This document shows, in pieces, positions 30,510-38,168 of a stretch of 38,168 bases of DNA (its first letter is position 1; the number at the start of each line of letters is the position of its first letter). Below the pieces are notes generated by a model. The model did not search any database. It saw nothing but the letters and a program-made list of their open reading frames with translations, and had not been told where the DNA came from. The position numbers and the translations under genes were made by a program. Source of the stretch: Nitrospirota bacterium (lineage in GTDB: Bacteria > Nitrospirota > Thermodesulfovibrionia > Thermodesulfovibrionales > UBA1546); NCBI GenBank assembly GCA_016208915.1, contig JACQXE010000019.1, positions 1-38,168 on the forward strand, given 5' to 3'.

Positions 30510-31685
30510 TTATTTGACAAGCTGGTTTAGCTGGAACATAGGCAGCAGGACTGCAAATACAATAAAACCTACGATGACTCCCATGACGAGTATTATGGAT
30601 GGCTCAAGCAGAGATAATGCCTTCTGAACACTTCTCGAAAAATCATCTTCGTATGAGTCTGCTGCCTTATTCATCACATCAATCAGCTTTCCTGTTTTTT
30701 CTCCGGTTGAGACAAGCTGGAGAAAAACCGGCGGAAATCCTTCAAGTGATGAAGAAAGCCCTGCTCCCTCAGAGACTCTTTTCCCTGCTTCCTGAATCTT
30801 CATGCCAAGCGCTCTGTTCCCGACAGACCTTGACGAGAATTCAAGCGCCCTGAGCATCGGGATACCGCCTTCAAGAAGAAATCCAAATGTCCTGGCGAAC
30901 CTGGCAAGATAAAGATTCAGGATTATGTTCCCGGGAATTCTCAGAATTATCCTGTCTATGAGGAGCGGATTTTTTTCTTTGAGCCTCTTTAATCCAATGA
31001 TACTGCCGGCAACTACCGCTAAGATTATCCACCAGTAGTTCTTGAAGAAGTTGCTTATATATATAAGCAGCATGGTCGCCACTGGGAGAGAACTCTTTGT
31101 GTCTTCAAATATCCTGACTATCTTCGGGACGACAAACATAAACAAAAAGGAAAGAACAACAAATCCCACGATGACCATAAACAGCGGATATATCATGGCT
31201 ATTCTTATCCTGTTTTTGATTGCATCCTGTTTTTCAAGAAAATCTGAAAGCCTTGAAAGCACGCCTGCAAGATTACCGCTTGCCTCTCCGGCTGTTATCA
31301 TATTAGTATAAAATTTAGGGAAGACATTTTCATGCCTTGACATTGCCTTTGAAAGGCTTGATCCTCCGGCTATTTTCTCGCGAATATCCATCAGGATTTC
31401 CTTCCATAGTCCCTTGCTCTCTTCTGTCAGGGATCTTAAGGCCTCTATCAACGGAACGCCTGAGGAAATAAGTATTGAGAGATGCCTTGTTATTGCAGGA
31501 AGGAGTGCAGCATCATGCCTCTTGAAGAAAAATCTCTTTCCTCTGTGGACATGCTCTGTTACCTCTTTTGGAAAAATCCCTTCATCTTTAACCTTTGATA
31601 CAGCATCCTTAAGTCCTTCTGCCTCGATAGTGCCGGTAGCCTCAGCGCCGTCAGTCTTATATCCTTTATATTGGAAAATTGGCAT
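30510..31685 (-). CDS. gspF: Type II secretion inner membrane platform protein GspF
   Basis: This 391-residue protein begins MPIFQYKGYKTDGAEATGTIEA, the normal GspF N-terminus, then has two homologous T2SSF domains. Domain 1 has LLPAITRHLSILISSGVPLIEALRSL (about 62) and domain 2 FARTFGFLLEGGIPMLRALEF (about 262). Each is followed by a membrane segment (IAMIYPLFMVIVGFVVLSFLFMFVV about 166; YWWIILAVVAGSIIG about 215; LEPSIILVMGVIVGFIVFAVLLPMF C-terminal). GspF anchors the assembly platform for the pseudopilus. It lies downstream of gspE, separated by palindromic repeat copy D. Confidence 0.95.
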   Translation of the reverse strand: MPIFQYKGYKTDGAEATGTIEAEGLKDAVSKVKDEGIFPKEVTEHVHRGKRFFFKRHDAALLPAITRHLSILISSGVPLIEALRSLTEESKGLWKEILMDIREKIAGGSSLSKAMSRHENVFPKFYTNMITAGEASGNLAGVLSRLSDFLEKQDAIKNRIRIAMIYPLFMVIVGFVVLSFLFMFVVPKIVRIFEDTKSSLPVATMLLIYISNFFKNYWWIILAVVAGSIIGLKRLKEKNPLLIDRIILRIPGNIILNLYLARFARTFGFLLEGGIPMLRALEFSSRSVGNRALGMKIQEAGKRVSEGAGLSSSLEGFPPVFLQLVSTGEKTGKLIDVMNKAADSYEDDFSRSVQKALSLLEPSIILVMGVIVGFIVFAVLLPMFQLNQLVK

Positions 31686-31756
31686 GTAATCATTTTACCC
31701 GAATAATGCAGTCATTGCTTAAAATCTGCATTATTTATATTGCATTGTGCTTAATA

Positions 31757-31875
31757 AGACAGGATATAGTATTCTCGCTCATTCTCGGTCGCCTAAGGCG
31801 CCCTCCGAGGTATTTTGCCTCTATTCATACTGTCTATCGGCAAAATAATGCCGCTTAAATACTATATCCTGTCTA
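31757..31875. repeat. MITE-like palindromic element, copy D
   Basis: Starts AGACAGGATATAGTAT (31757-) and ends with the exact inverse (to 31875). The interior has CGCTCATTCTCGGTCGC, GGTATTTTGCCTCT and CGGCAAAATAATGCCG. It is the cleanest copy and lies between gspE and gspF, 7 bases downstream of the gspE stop, unlike the other three that lie between convergent genes. Confidence 0.87.
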
Positions 31876-31882
31876 TCAGTCA

Positions 31883-33403
31883 CTATAACTCTGCAATCTC
31901 TTTCTGTGTTACTCTTAGTACCTCTTCAAGTGTAGTAATGCCTGTCATGACTTTTTCTATCCCATCTGACCTGAGGGTCTTCATGCCTCTGGAAACCGCG
32001 AGATTTGAAATGCTGTGTGCATCTGTCTCTCCTGTAATCATGCTCCGTATCTCATCATTTACAATCAGCAGCTCGAATATCCCTGTTCTTCCAAAATAAC
32101 CTTTTCCATTGCACTTGTCACAGCCATGTCCTCGGTAGAGGATGAAGGATGAAGATTGAGGGATGAAGGATGAAAGTTCGGATTTTGAGGGTTTGTATGA
32201 TTCCTTGCAGTGGGGGCATATGACACGGACAAGTCGCTGGGCCAGAACGCCAACCAATGATGATGTCACAAGGAAAGGCTCAACTTCCATATCAATAAGC
32301 CTTGTCACAGCAGACGGAGCATCGTTTGTATGCAGGGTGCTTAAGACAAGGTGCCCTGTCAGGGACGCCTGTATTGCAATCTCTGCTGTCTCAAAATCGC
32401 GTATTTCACCAACCATAATAACATCAGGATCCTGTCTTAGTATGGACCTTAGGCCTGCAGCAAATGTCAGCCCTATCTTTGGATTAACCTGTATCTGTCC
32501 GATTCCCTTCAACTGATATTCAGCGGGATCTTCAACAGTGATAATGTTCTTTTCCTCTGTATGAATCCTGTTCAACGCAGCATAAAGGGTTGTTGTCTTA
32601 CCGCTTCCTGTCGGGCCTGTAACCAGCAGAATCCCGCTCGTCCTGTGTAAAAGATTTTCAATAACACGCTCATCACTTTTGCTGAGACCAACCTCCCAGA
32701 GACCTATAAGCCCTTGTTTTCTGTCGAGCAGCCTTAATACTGCCCTCTCACCAAAAATAGTGGGCAAAACCGAAACTCTCACATCTATATCTCTTCCGCC
32801 AATCAAAAGTCTTATCCTTCCATCCTGCGGAAGGCGCTGCTCTGAGATATCAAGATTTGCCATTATTTTTATTCTGCTTATCAGTGCATCCTGGATTATC
32901 TTCGGCGGACTCAATACCTTATGAAGTATGCCGTCAACCCTCATCCTTACTTCAAGGTCCTTTTCATAGGGTTCTACATGGATATCGCTTGCCCTTTCCT
33001 TAACTGCCTGCAGAAACAAGGCATTCAGCAGTCTTATTATAGGAGCGTCTTCTGTGAGCTCAAGTATATCGCGCGGTTTTTCGAATTCTGTTGCAACAGA
33101 TGAAAGGTCTTCTCCTGAAATGTCTCCCATTACTTCTTCTGCAGAGCTGAGCTGGCCGTAAAATCTGTTTATCGCATCAATAATAATCCCTGCAGATGTA
33201 TTGAAAGGCAATGGTTCAAGATTGAATCTTTTTGAAAGCTCAATCAAGGCGAGGACTCCGGCTTCATTTGAAACTGCGCACAGGAGCTTGCTTCCTTCTC
33301 TCCTCATGGGCATTATCATATTGCCCTTTGCGAATGAGAGGGGGATATCTTTAACAAGGGAAAGCTCTACATCTTCATCTTTTATGCTGTTAATGTCCTC
33401 CAT
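31883..33403 (-). CDS. gspE: Type II secretion ATPase GspE
   Basis: This 506-residue secretion ATPase begins at ATG 33403, 10 bases after the gspD stop; an upstream start at 33442 would only overlap gspD. It has the N1E/N2E region, then Walker A GPTGSGKTTTLYAAL (about 258), an Asp box, QIQVNPKIGLTFAAGLRSILRQDPDVIMVGEIRD (Walker B and Asp box) and HLVLSTLHTNDA. A four-cysteine zinc subdomain is CPHCKESY...CDKCNGKGY. The linker between these cysteine pairs (SSFIPQSSSFIL, about 409-421) is encoded by a GGATGAAGGATGA-type repeat (32140-32175), in frame. It drives pseudopilus extension with gspF. Confidence 0.95.
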   Translation of the reverse strand: MEDINSIKDEDVELSLVKDIPLSFAKGNMIMPMRREGSKLLCAVSNEAGVLALIELSKRFNLEPLPFNTSAGIIIDAINRFYGQLSSAEEVMGDISGEDLSSVATEFEKPRDILELTEDAPIIRLLNALFLQAVKERASDIHVEPYEKDLEVRMRVDGILHKVLSPPKIIQDALISRIKIMANLDISEQRLPQDGRIRLLIGGRDIDVRVSVLPTIFGERAVLRLLDRKQGLIGLWEVGLSKSDERVIENLLHRTSGILLVTGPTGSGKTTTLYAALNRIHTEEKNIITVEDPAEYQLKGIGQIQVNPKIGLTFAAGLRSILRQDPDVIMVGEIRDFETAEIAIQASLTGHLVLSTLHTNDAPSAVTRLIDMEVEPFLVTSSLVGVLAQRLVRVICPHCKESYKPSKSELSSFIPQSSSFILYRGHGCDKCNGKGYFGRTGIFELLIVNDEIRSMITGETDAHSISNLAVSRGMKTLRSDGIEKVMTGITTLEEVLRVTQKEIAEL

Positions 33404-33413
33404 GAAGATTATC

Positions 33414-35330
33414 TTACTTCCCGAATTTTTCCTGCTTGTCAATGGTTATCTTTTCGAGGCTTTCTGATTCTTTTACGACATGAGGCGTGAGAAAAACAAG
33501 AAGGTTTGTCTTTTTCTTTGATATGCTTTTGTATTTGAAAAGCCATCCTAATAAAGGAATATCGCCTAACAAAGGCACCTTTGTAATATTTTCTTCATCC
33601 TTTTCCTGCATGAGGCCTCCGATAACAACAGTCTGTTTATCTTTGACTACAACAGACGTCTTTGTTGACCTTTTTGTGGTCGTTGGCCCCACGCTGATGA
33701 GGATATCAGTGCTTGCCCCCTGTTTTATGGAAGATATCTCCTGATATATATCGAGCTTCACATAATCACCTTCTGTTATCTGAGGGGTAATCTTGAGTGT
33801 GATGCCCACGTCTTTTCTTTCGATAGTGCTGAAGACAGAAAGCGTCCTTGTAGGGTCAGATTCTTTTTTGCTTATAAAAGGAACATTTTCGCCGACAACT
33901 ATCTCAGCTTCTTTATTGTCTGACGTAAGTATCTGCGGCGTTGAAAGCACATTTATTGCGCCCTCAAAATCGCTGAGGCTGAATATTGCAGCAAAACCGG
34001 GAACAGTAATGTTAGAGGTTGTTCCGCTTGTATTTGTTACAGGCACTGACAGAAAGTTCCCCATGCCGCCTATTGTCAGGCCTGTGAGCCCGCTTATTAT
34101 TGACTGAATAGCGCTGTTATCAATAGTGCCTACACCGCCTATAAGCACTGGCTCGTTTTCATGTCTTGCTATTCCTCTCCACTTTGTGCCTATATCCTTT
34201 AATTTGTCTATGGATGCTTCAACAATCATTGCCTCAACAAACACCTGCCTTCTTCGCCTGTCGAGTTGTTTTATAACCTGAAGAAGGTTCTGATAATCTC
34301 CTGGGGAGGCTACCATCACAAGCGAATTAGTTGCCTTATCAGGCGTAATTGTTATCCCGCCTGTTTCAAACGGGGTTGTCCCGGATGCTGGCTGCTTTGT
34401 CGTCTGAATCCCCCTTATAATTCCTTCCAATACTTTTGCAAGGTCTGTCGCATCTGCATTCTCAAGAAAATATACATTTATCCTGCCCTGCGCTTCAGGC
34501 GAGGGTACATCCAGTAAAGTAATAAGCCCTTTCATTGATTCCCTTCCGCTCTTGTCTCCGAAGAGAATTACAGCATTAAGCCTCTGGTCCGCCACTGCCT
34601 TTGCTTCTTCAACAGGCTGTGGCGCTGGCTTAGTCTTTCTGTTTAGTCCTTCATTTAATATCTTTGCTGTTGAATCCGCACTCGAATATTTCAGTAAGAC
34701 TATTTCAGGTCCTTCCTTCATTACAGGCTGGTCTATGCTTTCCACCAGAGAGAGTATCTTTTCTATGTTCAACCCTGAATCTATTAAAAGCAGGAGGTTG
34801 CCGGGTCCGAAAGCAGATATGTGCCCGTCCCTTGATATTACAGGCTGTAGAAATCTCAGTGCATCATCCGAAGATATATACCTGAGGGAAATCAACCTTG
34901 CTATATAACTCTCATTAACAGGCAGCCTGTCTGTTGTGACCTTCATTCCGCGCTGCTTTGCCTCGCCTGCAGGTATGATCTTATAGGCGTCAGTGCCTGA
35001 GGGTATGACTGTGAATCCTTTCAGTTCAAGAACTGATGTGAAAAGGTTAAATGCATCTTCAATAGATAGTTTTGAGGGCGCTATAATAGTAATCTTCCCT
35101 TTCAGTCTCTCGTCAAATATAAAGTTCTTGCCTGTGATGTCGCTTATGAATTTGGTCACAACTATAAGGTCAACTTCAACGAAATTGAATGTAACCTTTT
35201 CGGCTTTCTTTGTTTCAGCAAAAGAAACATTTACCAAAAAGGATGAAGGATGAAGGATGAGGGATGAAATCAATATAAAAAGGATAAGTGATACAGGATG
35301 AGCGATGGAAAAGAATTTTTTTCTGTTCAT
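33414..35330 (-). CDS. gspD: Type II secretion outer membrane secretin GspD
   Basis: This 638-residue secretin starts at ATG 35330 (a TTG at 35345 adds five residues). The leader (about 1-38) ends SFA and holds ILHPSSF, translated from a GGATGAAGGATGA-type tandem repeat (35241-35268). N0 begins VTFNFVEVDLIVVTKFISDITGKNF; N1 to N3 repeats follow (VLLKYSSADSTAKILNEGL; INVYFLENADATDLAKVLEGI). The secretin domain has VFVEAMIVEAS, VPFISKKES, VGITLKITPQITEGD, KDKQTVVIGGLM and KVPLLGDIPLLGWLFK. It forms the outer-membrane channel. A C-terminal S-domain is not obvious. Confidence 0.95.
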   Translation of the reverse strand: MNRKKFFSIAHPVSLILFILISSLILHPSSFLVNVSFAETKKAEKVTFNFVEVDLIVVTKFISDITGKNFIFDERLKGKITIIAPSKLSIEDAFNLFTSVLELKGFTVIPSGTDAYKIIPAGEAKQRGMKVTTDRLPVNESYIARLISLRYISSDDALRFLQPVISRDGHISAFGPGNLLLLIDSGLNIEKILSLVESIDQPVMKEGPEIVLLKYSSADSTAKILNEGLNRKTKPAPQPVEEAKAVADQRLNAVILFGDKSGRESMKGLITLLDVPSPEAQGRINVYFLENADATDLAKVLEGIIRGIQTTKQPASGTTPFETGGITITPDKATNSLVMVASPGDYQNLLQVIKQLDRRRRQVFVEAMIVEASIDKLKDIGTKWRGIARHENEPVLIGGVGTIDNSAIQSIISGLTGLTIGGMGNFLSVPVTNTSGTTSNITVPGFAAIFSLSDFEGAINVLSTPQILTSDNKEAEIVVGENVPFISKKESDPTRTLSVFSTIERKDVGITLKITPQITEGDYVKLDIYQEISSIKQGASTDILISVGPTTTKRSTKTSVVVKDKQTVVIGGLMQEKDEENITKVPLLGDIPLLGWLFKYKSISKKKTNLLVFLTPHVVKESESLEKITIDKQEKFGK

Positions 35331-35453
35331 CTTATCTATTCCCAACCTTTCTGATTATAGATGTGAAAATTGTTATTAACTTGTTTGTCTCAGAAAGCAA
35401 CAAAAAACTATGGTCTATTCTATCATCAAACAAAAGTTCAAGCCAGTAACCAG

Positions 35454-36317
35454 TTATTTAATCTGATACGTCATTGTCATCCTTGAGCCGCTTCGTATGA
35501 TATCGAGCTGGACCCTGTCCATTCCCTTAAGCGCTGTGAATGCCTGAAGCGCAGTCTCTGGATTAGAGATATTATACTCATTTATCCTCAGGAGTACATC
35601 TCCATTCTGGAGCCCGATGCTCTGGTATATCCCTCCTGATCTTACCTCTCTGAGCACAAATCCTTCCTGAGCGCCATCAGTGACATTTGGCAAAAGCCTT
35701 GCATCAGTCATAATCTGATTAGGATTTGCAAGGGCCTGCTGGAGCCGCTGACCATCAATTATATAAGATGTATCTGCCGTCTTTCTGGCGAATCTGTCGC
35801 TCGGGACAGATTCAGGTTTTGCACCTGATATATGTGTCTCTTTAACAGTAATTATGTCTGCTATCTGAATCTCTCTTGTTTTTCCCTTGTCTTCCAAGAT
35901 GACTCTGTCTTTTTCAACCTTTTGCAGTCTGCCAAGCCCGAAAACAGCATCGCCGGTCTTGAATATTTCCTGCATATTATTCTTATCAGCAAAGATTGCG
36001 TATGCAAATTTTCTGTTTCCTGACACAGTCCCTATAAGCTTTACATCAATGATCGCAGGGGCTATATCTGTTTTTGAGCTTAATTGAGATAATTCTCCTG
36101 CATCAAATCCAAAGGGATTCTTCCTGAGGATTGGGCTGTACTCCATAAACTCTTTTTTCTGTGAAATCCTCTGCTGTGCGGCCGGATTTTGTGTTATTTT
36201 TTTAGGAGGCGCTGTATAAAATACAGCTATTTCCCTTATGAGCAGCAAAAATAATCCTATTATAAGCAAGACAAGGACGATGTTTATGAGAGATATTGTT
36301 TTTTTCCCAATAAGCAT
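35454..36317 (-). CDS. gspC: Type II secretion coupling protein GspC
   Basis: This 287-residue inner membrane protein starts MLIGKKTISLINIVLVLLIIGLFLLLIREIAVFYTAPP with one membrane helix (about 11-27). The periplasmic homology region (about 70-155) has VDVKLIGTVSGNRKFAYAIFADKN and VGLGRLQ-type strands, KTREIQIADIITVKE. A C-terminal PDZ-like domain (about 200-287) has EGFVLREVRSGGIYQSIGLQNGDVLLRINEYNISN and GMDRVQLDIIRSG. GspC links the secretin to the inner platform. It heads gspC-D-E-F. A decayed copy of its first codons and upstream DNA lies at 37814-37880. Confidence 0.9.
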   Translation of the reverse strand: MLIGKKTISLINIVLVLLIIGLFLLLIREIAVFYTAPPKKITQNPAAQQRISQKKEFMEYSPILRKNPFGFDAGELSQLSSKTDIAPAIIDVKLIGTVSGNRKFAYAIFADKNNMQEIFKTGDAVFGLGRLQKVEKDRVILEDKGKTREIQIADIITVKETHISGAKPESVPSDRFARKTADTSYIIDGQRLQQALANPNQIMTDARLLPNVTDGAQEGFVLREVRSGGIYQSIGLQNGDVLLRINEYNISNPETALQAFTALKGMDRVQLDIIRSGSRMTMTYQIK

Positions 36318-36466
36318 TTATAAAAACCTTCAGCCCTATTTTAGCAGATTGGCAAGATAATGGTGCAGAGAAATGCGAAATAAAAAACCTGTTATTTCTG
36401 GGGCGGGTTTCTAATAAAGACTGATTCCTTCCCCTTTTCCTACTGCCTTAACTGATAAAGCGCCAT

Positions 36467-36685
36467 TTACGCAGCTTTTGTGAATATAAGGTTTTCTGTG
36501 GAAAGGTTAAAGATGTCTTCGAGGCTATACCTTTCAGTTGCCCCAATTATTTCAAGTCCGATTATACGGCCTTCAGAATCAAGATCAATATTAATTCCTT
36601 CTTCGATCTCACGTGTGTGAGAAACTTTTTTTTCCTGTATTCTTATATATAATGCGTCTACTTCTTTATCATATTCGATCTTCAT
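36467..36685 (-). CDS. DUF2283 family protein (putative antitoxin)
   Basis: This 72-residue protein starts MKIEYDKEVDALYIRIQEKKVSHTREIEEGINIDLDSEGRIIGLEIIGA, the DUF2283 pattern of short strands ending in an EIIGA motif, followed by a helix. DUF2283 genes very often follow DUF4258 genes and are considered candidate antitoxins, although few have been tested. It lies eight bases after the DUF4258 gene on the same strand. An AGGAGG-like site precedes the ATG. The role is inferred from gene pairing. Confidence 0.85.
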   Translation of the reverse strand: MKIEYDKEVDALYIRIQEKKVSHTREIEEGINIDLDSEGRIIGLEIIGATERYSLEDIFNLSTENLIFTKAA

Positions 36686-36693
36686 AATACCTC

Positions 36694-36915
36694 CTATTTG
36701 TTCTTATCAATAGCAGTGATAATTATTATCCTGTTTTCATCCTGCGTATAAGTCACCTTAAGAAGCTTTTCTCCAATATGCCTAAATGCATTTTTCCTGC
36801 CTCGTATGGAATCCACGACTTTTTCAGGATTAGATATTGTAGTTTTTACCTCCGCTTCATCAATTTCACGCCATTTCATCTGTCGCCTTGCATGTCTGCT
36901 AAAATGGATTTCCAT
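36694..36915 (-). CDS. DUF4258 family protein (putative RelE-fold toxin)
   Basis: This 73-residue protein starts MEIHFSRHARRQMKWREIDEAEVKTTISNPEKVVDSIRGRKNAF, the DUF4258 pattern (F-S-x-H-A-x-x-x-M-x-x-R-x-I) of small RelE-like proteins, and ends with LLKVTYTQDENRIIIITAI. It precedes a DUF2283 gene by eight bases, an arrangement seen often in genomes and suggestive of a toxin-antitoxin pair. Toxic activity has not been shown for this sequence. An AT-rich region with no clear promoter is upstream. Confidence 0.82.
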   Translation of the reverse strand: MEIHFSRHARRQMKWREIDEAEVKTTISNPEKVVDSIRGRKNAFRHIGEKLLKVTYTQDENRIIIITAIDKNK

Positions 36916-37011
36916 TTCATTCCGTTCATTAAATCTATATGAATTAACAAAAATAACAATTAGTAATAAAGTAAGTCAAGGATTATGTTTCATGTAGGCA
37001 AAAAAGACAAT

Positions 37012-37042
37012 AAAAAGGGAGGGCTGAATCAGCCCTCCCTTA
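37012..37042 (-). terminator. Rho-independent terminator (minus strand)
   Basis: A perfect 11-bp inverted repeat, GGGAGGGCTGA (37017-37027) and TCAGCCCTCCC (37029-37039), is followed on the minus strand by TTTTTA. It lies 28 bases after the stop codon of the truncated CARDB gene and should terminate its transcription before the DUF4258 pair. Confidence 0.8.
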
Positions 37043-37069
37043 AGAATCTCGCCAAAAGCAAATGTCCTT

Positions 37070-37190
37070 TTAATTTATCGTTATTGCCTTAGACTTTGTA
37101 TTATTCGTTTCACTTGTCTCAGAAACCACTCCATTAGCATCTGATACTGCAATAATGTAATAGGCGCCAGGCGTTATTCCAGATGAACAA
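37070..37190 (-). pseudogene. C-terminal fragment of a CARDB/Ig-like protein
   Basis: The minus-strand frame SGITPGAYYIIAVSDANGVV...ETNNTKSKAITIN ends at TAA (37072-37070). It matches the last strands of CARDB-type extracellular domains (x-G-x-Y-Y-I-x-A-x-A-D-x-x-x-x-V-x-E-x-x-E-x-N-N). No start codon or upstream domain is present: the upstream DNA is the parE-like toxin gene, which ends inside the fragment in another frame. The gene was therefore truncated, probably when the toxin-antitoxin pair was inserted. A terminator survives downstream. Confidence 0.65.
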
Positions 37191-37488
37191 GAATTTTTAA
37201 GTATCTCTCAATCTCCATTGCATTATGAAAAACACCCAAAATATCAATTAATTCTTTACTTCTTATGAGATAAGCAATACGATAATGCCCAAATAATAGT
37301 ATTCTTATATCCCCTTCTGGTTCCGACCTATACTTATATCCAATTTCAGGAAAATCTTTCAAAATCTGTGCCTTTTTATAAATCCCGGTCGTAACCCGTT
37401 GTGCTGCATTCTTTTTGTCTTGGGCAATATAGCCATAAATATCTTTAAGCCACTTTTCTGCCTCTGATGTCCATCTTGTTTTTGCCAT
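37174..37488 (-). CDS. ParE/RelE-fold toxin
   Basis: This 104-residue protein begins MAKTRWTSEAEKWLKDIYGYIAQDKKNAAQRVTTGIYKKAQIL, and has PEIGYKYRSEPEGDIRILLFGHYRIAYLIR and VDILGVFHNAMEI-like final strand. This is the usual RelE/ParE superfamily layout (two helices, then a beta-sheet with an R-x-x-L-x-G-x-Y-R-I-x-Y core). It follows an antitoxin gene with an out-of-frame overlap of 130 bases. Its last ten codons overlap the truncated CARDB fragment. Whether the target is gyrase or mRNA cannot be decided. Confidence 0.85.
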   Translation of the reverse strand: MAKTRWTSEAEKWLKDIYGYIAQDKKNAAQRVTTGIYKKAQILKDFPEIGYKYRSEPEGDIRILLFGHYRIAYLIRSKELIDILGVFHNAMEIERYLKILVHLE

Positions 37489-37661
37489 GAACGAATGCGC
37501 TGCTCCATTTCCTCATTGATGATAACCCTGCCTTTTCGTGAATCTTCTAATCCCCGCTCAACCATTCGCTCAAATGCAAGTTCACGCATTATTTCTTCAT
37601 ATGACGCGTCTTCAGGTTGTTCTTGAATAATTTTTGTCATCACCTCTTTTGCAATAACCAT
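37359..37661 (-). CDS. Antitoxin partner of the ParE/RelE-like toxin
   Basis: This 100-residue frame begins MVIAKEVMTKIIQEQPEDASYEEIMRELAFERMVERGLEDSRKG and RVIINEEMEQRIRSWQK, the pattern of a common small antitoxin family paired with ParE/RelE-type toxins. Family members usually end soon after the E-E-M-x-x-R-I-x-x-W segment, at about residue 60. Here the frame runs on another 40 residues across the toxin gene, so the stop may have been lost or the extra residues may be frame noise. AAAGGAGG lies six bases before the ATG, and an AT-rich TATAAAAT region is upstream. Confidence 0.75.
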   Translation of the reverse strand: MVIAKEVMTKIIQEQPEDASYEEIMRELAFERMVERGLEDSRKGRVIINEEMEQRIRSWQKQDGHQRQKSGLKIFMAILPKTKRMQHNGLRPGFIKRHRF

Positions 37662-37813
37662 AACTTTCCTCCTTTATATTTTATATATATTTTAACAAAT
37701 TAATATGACTTCCTTCTTAAAAATTTCTGCATGGAAGGGTGATGTATATCTATTAATCTATCCTACCTCAGTTACCTAATTACTGAGCATGAACAACAGG
37801 TCTATTTTTCTCC

Positions 37814-37880
37814 ACGATATTTATCATGGAAATTATTTTTTCCCAATAAGCATTCACAAAAATCTTCAGCCCTATTTTAG
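37814..37880 (-). pseudogene. Decayed duplicate of the gspC start and upstream DNA
   Basis: These 67 bases align with 36277-36344 at about 58 of 68 positions. On the minus strand they spell ATG CTT ATT GGG AAA AAA (MLIGKK, as in gspC). A one-base loss in the A run then gives TAA at once. The rest of gspC is missing. It lies just before the IS256-like element, about 1.5 kb from the intact gene. Confidence 0.75.
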
Positions 37881-37907
37881 ACAATGTTCCTTTAGTTATT
37901 GAAGTAG

Positions 37908-37963
37908 GAAGCGACCTCGATTAAACTATTTCATCCAAAAACTTATTTAAAGGAGGTCGCTTC
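37908..37963 (+). promoter_or_regulatory. Hairpin sequestering the transposase ribosome site
   Basis: GAAGCGACCTC (37908-37918) pairs perfectly with GAGGTCGCTTC (37953-37963) around a 34-base loop. The second arm contains the AGGAGG ribosome site and ends just before the ATG at 37965. In a transcript that reads through from outside, the site would be hidden; initiating inside the loop or past the first arm would leave it open. This resembles fold-back inhibition in other IS elements. Confidence 0.6.
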
Positions 37964-37964
37964 T

Positions 37965-38168
37965 ATGAGTAAAAGATACCGTAAGATGGCAAAAAAGGCA
38001 AATGGAAAGATAAGGGAGATAAAGGAGGGGCAGGTCATATTGGAGATGCCTCTACCTATAGCTGATGTATTAGCAGGCATACCTGAGGCAGTTGAGGGAT
38101 TATCACAGGAGGTAGGTCTAATGCTTGTGTCGGCTGTGATTAAGGCTGAGTGCGAGCAGATAGCAGGC
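37965..38168 (+). mobile_element. IS256/mutator-like transposase, N-terminal part (cut by window edge)
   Basis: The frame is open to the right edge, 68 residues: MSKRYRKMAKKANGKIREIK, then VILEMPLPIADVLAGIPEAVEGLSQEVGLMLVSAVIKAECEQIAG. The amphipathic segment with L-P-L-x-x-x-L-x-G-x-x-E-A-V-x-x-L-x-x-E-x-G-L and the following A-V-I-x-A-E-x-E pattern resembles the N-terminus of IS256 (mutator) transposases. The DDE catalytic domain is outside the window, so the family is probable, not certain. GGAGG precedes the ATG within a hairpin. Confidence 0.6.

Follow-up and report, generated by a model that had tools for sequence, protein, structure and literature searches.

The window, meaning the whole stretch of DNA analysed here, is the entire contig C83 (38,168 bases) of a Nitrospirota genome of 2.5 Mb in 88 contigs that is 98.8% complete. 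It carries a gspC-D-E-F operon on the minus strand (30510-36317), headed by an intact gspC. Between the start of that gene and the contig end lie two small genes of the DUF2283 and DUF4258 families, the 3′ end of a CARDB-domain gene, a parE-type toxin gene with an antitoxin-type open reading frame, one terminal repeat of an IS481-type element, a truncated second copy of the gspC start, and the left end of an IS256-family element (Table 1). Scanning the window for Rfam families and tRNAs returned nothing, and a promoter scan gave a count of 8, compared to a shuffle mean of 6.8 (sd 2.6), which is no excess.

Table 1. Features from gspC to the contig end, in window coordinates.
Feature	Coordinates	Strand	Evidence
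gspC, intact, heads gspC-D-E-F	35454..36317	-	T2SSC Pfam 5e-15; NCBIfam NF041515 GspC 158 bits, cut-off 150
Repeat copy A: gspC leader, start codon, first ~13 codons	36277..36344	-	alignment
DUF2283 gene, 72 aa	36467..36685	-	Pfam 1e-18
DUF4258 gene, 73 aa	36694..36915	-	Pfam 3.6e-9
Terminator-like hairpin of the CARDB remnant	37015..37041	-	12-pair stem and T-run
CARDB-domain gene, 3′ end (remnant)	37070..37185	-	tblastn 2e-11 to C66 protein, CARDB by Pfam
parE-type toxin gene	37174..37488	-	ParE_toxin 2.2e-15; alignment to three relatives
parDE mobile block, probable former integron gene cassette without 3′ attC	37189..37733	-	recurrence in relatives
Antitoxin-type ORF, 100 aa	37359..37661	-	upstream of parE
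Lone terminal repeat, IS481-type element	37770..37797		28/28 identical to end of the element at L090
Repeat copy B: truncated gspC start, MLIGKK then stop	37814..37880	-	alignment, tblastn
IS256-family element, left end and first 68 codons	37880..38168	+	98% to C86, 90% to C12

The two copies of the gspC start have the same orientation and lie 1,536 bases apart. Their local alignment spans 68 columns with nine mismatches and one gap (85% identity), including identical stretches of 19 and 17 bases and a best part, 36300-36344 against 37836-37880, with three mismatches in 45. The alignment score of 84 compares with a mean of 22.4 and a maximum of 40 across 500 dinucleotide-preserving shuffles of both regions, making the repeat significant, and past either of its ends homology is at shuffle level only. 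Copy B contains the leader, the start codon and about 13 codons of gspC, with an A run that is one base shorter and a stop after six codons. A preliminary description of this DNA had reported the repeat, its identity and orientation, and the lost base with the short MLIGKK frame, all of which are borne out by the alignment, the sequence and tblastn. In particular, a tblastn search with gspC on 36345-38168 recovered MLIGKK together with two chance-level matches (E 0.67 and 6), and an interior comparison stayed at shuffle level.

Two other accounts of the repeat were considered and set aside. As a dispersed genomic repeat it would have further copies, and the search across all 88 contigs of its own genome listed copies A and B and no third place. 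As part of another conserved gene, copy B would lie within a coding frame, and no open reading frame of at least 50 aa covers it; nor was a homologue listed in the other 394 of the 395 phylum genomes sampled, with two candidate places scored per genome. Copy B would appear to be a gspC start without function.

The DNA between the copies has several sources, and its genes are those that the preliminary description had named. The DUF4258/DUF2283 pair has DNA matches of 66-73% in four other genomes (G078, G151, G064 and G251) and a partial one in a fifth (G309); overall, 9 of the 395 genomes, its own included, show some match to the pair. Within the paper library searched, none names DUF4258 together with DUF2283. 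Positions 37012-37185 are the 3′ end of a CARDB-domain gene plus its terminator, and the same terminator-like hairpin follows CARDB genes on contigs C66 and C27. The remnant's DNA matches C65 over 37070-37185, with shorter matches at other loci of the genome.

The parDE block is a predicted type II toxin-antitoxin module by the family match of its toxin only, the antitoxin-type frame having no Pfam or NCBIfam match at the limits used. The block recurs in three distant Nitrospirota at unrelated loci (L134, L135 and L136), with identities of 94% in G121, which belongs to another family, and 87% in both G140 and G307. Both of its edges are common to the window, G121 and G140, and in G307 the parE edge agrees within one base. 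The antitoxin-type frame has 100 aa in the window. In G121 and G307 it has 61 aa, ending at a stop codon in the overlap with the parE start, and this codon is a sense codon here. At its parE edge the block joins the CARDB DNA directly, so that the CARDB remnant supplies the last codons and the stop of parE.

The edges of the block in the relatives may correspond to those of integron gene cassettes. An NNATAAC box closes the toxin gene in all three. In G121, a 56-base attC-like site lies at the 3′ edge of the block, with a weak fold score (z -1.22; 23 of 200 shuffles as good), and in G307 an attC-like 60-mer lies at the 5′ edge (z -2.35; 2 of 200 shuffles as good), its GTTATGC end no more than three bases from the block; in the predicted folds of both, the ends pair and a hairpin forms in the middle. 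In G307, a small pair that by eye is toxin-antitoxin-like precedes the block, the 60-mer lying between the two. A home-made attC scan found no more sites in real sequence than in shuffled sequence, and it listed the G121 site and not the G307 one; the case for a cassette therefore rests on the edges, their position and the fold. No attC was found at the block's end in the window, and the scan lists none there.

Further, the genome itself encodes an integron integrase (G000:C64:89120-90055, L130) that scores over the TIGR02249 cut-off, as do one protein in G121, one in G140 and two in G307, compared to none in 14 control genomes. In all four genomes the integrases are on other contigs than the parDE block. 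The parDE block probably originated as an integron cassette, its 3′ attC having since been lost.

On the outer side, copy B is bordered by an IS256-family element within which the contig ends. A copy of this element on C86, also at a contig end, is homologous to the window at 98% from 37880 onward; the copies on C12 and C8 differ at their first bases, so that the first base of the element is placed at 37880-37884. The full element on C12 encodes a 426-aa IS256-family transposase (210 bits, compared to a cut-off of 150 for NF033543); close to its ends lies an inverted repeat of 16 bases, and by eye the copy is flanked by a repeat of 8 bases. The repeat homology stops where the homology to the element begins (37880), and copy B was therefore cut by this IS256-like element. 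C12 is the sole contig that carries the element's right part, and the DNA on its far side is not linkable to the window that way.

These circumstances bear on whether the contig end is an assembly artefact, a chimera of strain variants or of collapsed copies of the element. A contig ending inside an insertion sequence, with the right part of that sequence known from a single contig, would be in keeping with such an origin; however, the divergence of copies A and B reaches 15% and the intervening junctions fall at sensible element edges, making an artefact highly improbable.

On the inner side, 16 bases from copy B, lies the terminal repeat of an IS481-type element. The element that shares it, at L090 in G006, encodes a 319-aa transposase and has, at its opposite end, a diverged inverted copy of the repeat (21 of 28 bases). 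The best family of that transposase is IS481, at 179.7 bits and below the cut-off of 224, with the next family at 78.7. The end motif occurs with zero to four mismatches at all 17 listed places, one of them in the same genome as the window, and several of its copies adjoin GTCCCC. On C71 of the window's own genome, the motif (L106 1986-2013) is separated by some 350 bases from a gene for a Y1/IS200-like transposase (703-1635, by Pfam). Within the window, nothing else of the IS481-type element was recognised and no transposase. A candidate second end near 36411 was rejected as unsupported, its pattern being present in 2 of 390 genomes, namely this one and another with three mismatches.

The gspC loci of relatives show what surrounds this gene elsewhere. 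Among 17 relatives' loci that extend past gspC, gspD is its neighbour in 15, with L028 and L058 as the exceptions; three further loci end at gspC, L068 is without gspC in the same test, and some of the loci may come from one genome. At L028 (JACRHE010000070, 9684-15284), about 5.6 kb with several open reading frames separates gspC from gspD. The upstream neighbours vary and include an efflux protein (L057), ApbE, NusG_II and Hpre genes (L065), a subtilase (G005) and a PMT_2-like protein just below its cut-off (L056). Pseudopilin genes, which the preliminary description had suggested looking for on the far side of the IS256-like element, are not supported as upstream neighbours of the window's gspC, because in three relatives (L059, L063 and L064) T2SSG was seen to follow gspF on its downstream side. 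The genome's own T2SSG genes are on other contigs, and the examined pieces of its pseudopilin contigs C24 and C87 carry neither end of the element and no copy of the repeat.

The comparison of upstream regions to which the preliminary description had pointed gave no second instance of the arrangement: a repeated gspC start was found in none of 19 relatives' loci, over 1.6 to 9.9 kb of upstream DNA, the best match having an E value of 0.05 compared to 7e-18 in the window. This result weighs against one of the two explanations offered there, island insertion with a duplicated end. Spelled out, a mobile island would have entered at the start of gspC and duplicated or re-supplied it, which would make copies A and B its attachment sites. 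Direct repeats of a gene start that flank an interior and share identical stretches of 19 and 17 bases are what such an insertion could leave behind, but no integrase or transposase gene was recognised between the copies, A and B have diverged by 15%, and the interior splits into separately mobile pieces. The 1.47-kb interior is not one island, its pieces having separate edges and distributions, and the island explanation is accordingly improbable. The other explanation, duplication of gspC followed by replacement, is the better supported of the two.

In our reading, copy B fairly likely survives from an old duplication at this locus, the space between the copies having been filled in separate events. 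The gspC promoter and start would have been duplicated locally, probably in tandem; the operon-side copy A would have been kept intact while the outer copy B lost one base; the IS256-family insertion cut copy B on one side; and the gap would have been built piecemeal from the DUF4258/DUF2283 pair, the 3′ end of the CARDB gene and the cassette-like parDE block. A repeat far beyond chance, in one orientation and at a distance of 1,536 bases, that is listed at this locus only (with two candidates per genome in the 394 others) argues for a local duplication, as does the lack of another gspC in the genome and of any gspC sequence other than MLIGKK upstream of copy A. Against a tandem unit, no second copy of the DNA next to copy A was found beyond copy B, where the insertion sequence and the contig end could hide it.

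The local duplication appears to be older than the arrivals of the insertion sequence and the parDE block, since A and B show 15% divergence, whereas parDE is 94% identical to its counterpart in another family and the IS end 98% identical to a further copy in the genome. As a comparison of sequence divergences (15% compared to 2-6%), this order is only suggestive, and the 67 bases that remain of copy B are too few for dating.

The pattern of differences between A and B admits another history, in which copy B began a second gspC that was functional in the past. That gene, belonging to a diverged further operon or derived from a related species, would have come to lie beside the present gspC and then been lost, the present gspC being the survivor or the replacement. 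Two post hoc contrasts lean that way: 4 of 13 third codon positions differ, compared to 2 of 27 other coding positions (Fisher p 0.07, short of significance), and the 22 bases at the gspC-inner end differ more than the 45-base core (six compared to three differences, p 0.05). Both leans would be expected of a sequence that had been under selection as a functional gene, possibly at another place, although neither is strong and the 13-codon sample is tiny. No donor was found, however, as the DNA of copies A and B is unlisted in the 394 other genomes (at two candidates each) and in the genome of L032 and L033. Each of the 25 genomes with a gspC match has one. Among named records, related gspC genes come mostly from Nitrospirae or Thermodesulfovibrionales MAGs. 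The nearest gspC across the full length is 63-65% identical; the 92% match at L033 covers only the last 49 residues, a conserved tail, of a gspC that is broken over two contigs. We regard this history as unlikely.

In a more far-reaching version, the spot before gspC would be a landing site where related species have exchanged entire gspC alleles or operons. If so, copy B would be the last trace of a displaced gspC promoter and start, and the toxin-antitoxin cassettes would fix the swap, but we regard this as very doubtful.

Overall, copy B is a genuine though ordinary scar, and an old duplication most likely left it in a place that mobile genes repeatedly reach. Duplication of a gspC start does not appear in the titles and abstract openings of the ten papers listed out of 27 in a literature search. 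The locus illustrates how, beside a conserved secretion operon, single toxin-antitoxin cassettes and insertion sequences may accumulate layer by layer into a variable spot. Of more use is a side result, the parDE block, whose presence in unrelated chromosomal contexts of several Nitrospirota bears on how integron cassettes settle outside arrays. Work by Loot et al. in 2024 is said to describe cassette insertion at non-classical attG sites.

A study of Vibrio cholerae chromosomal integrons (PMC11023631) speaks of 19 toxin-antitoxin gene cassettes. Similar to the cassettes of chromosomal integrons, parDE is a small gene pair that brings along a 5′ leader, and its edges in the three relatives bear attC-like sites or boxes; in contrast to them, the window's copy is without a 3′ attC, its toxin frame enters the CARDB remnant, and no array or integrase is shown linked to it. 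The IS256-family and IS481-type sequences agree with known insertion sequences in the transposase family matches (below the cut-off for IS481) and terminal repeats of the relatives' copies, whereas the window has just one end of each. Partial tandem duplication of a gene, followed by decay of the outer copy, is a known kind of event in general. The gspC repeat shares with it the direct, same-orientation copies of a gene start, one intact and one truncated, and differs from it in that the outer copy is flanked by the ends of two different mobile elements, with unrelated modules occupying the gap.
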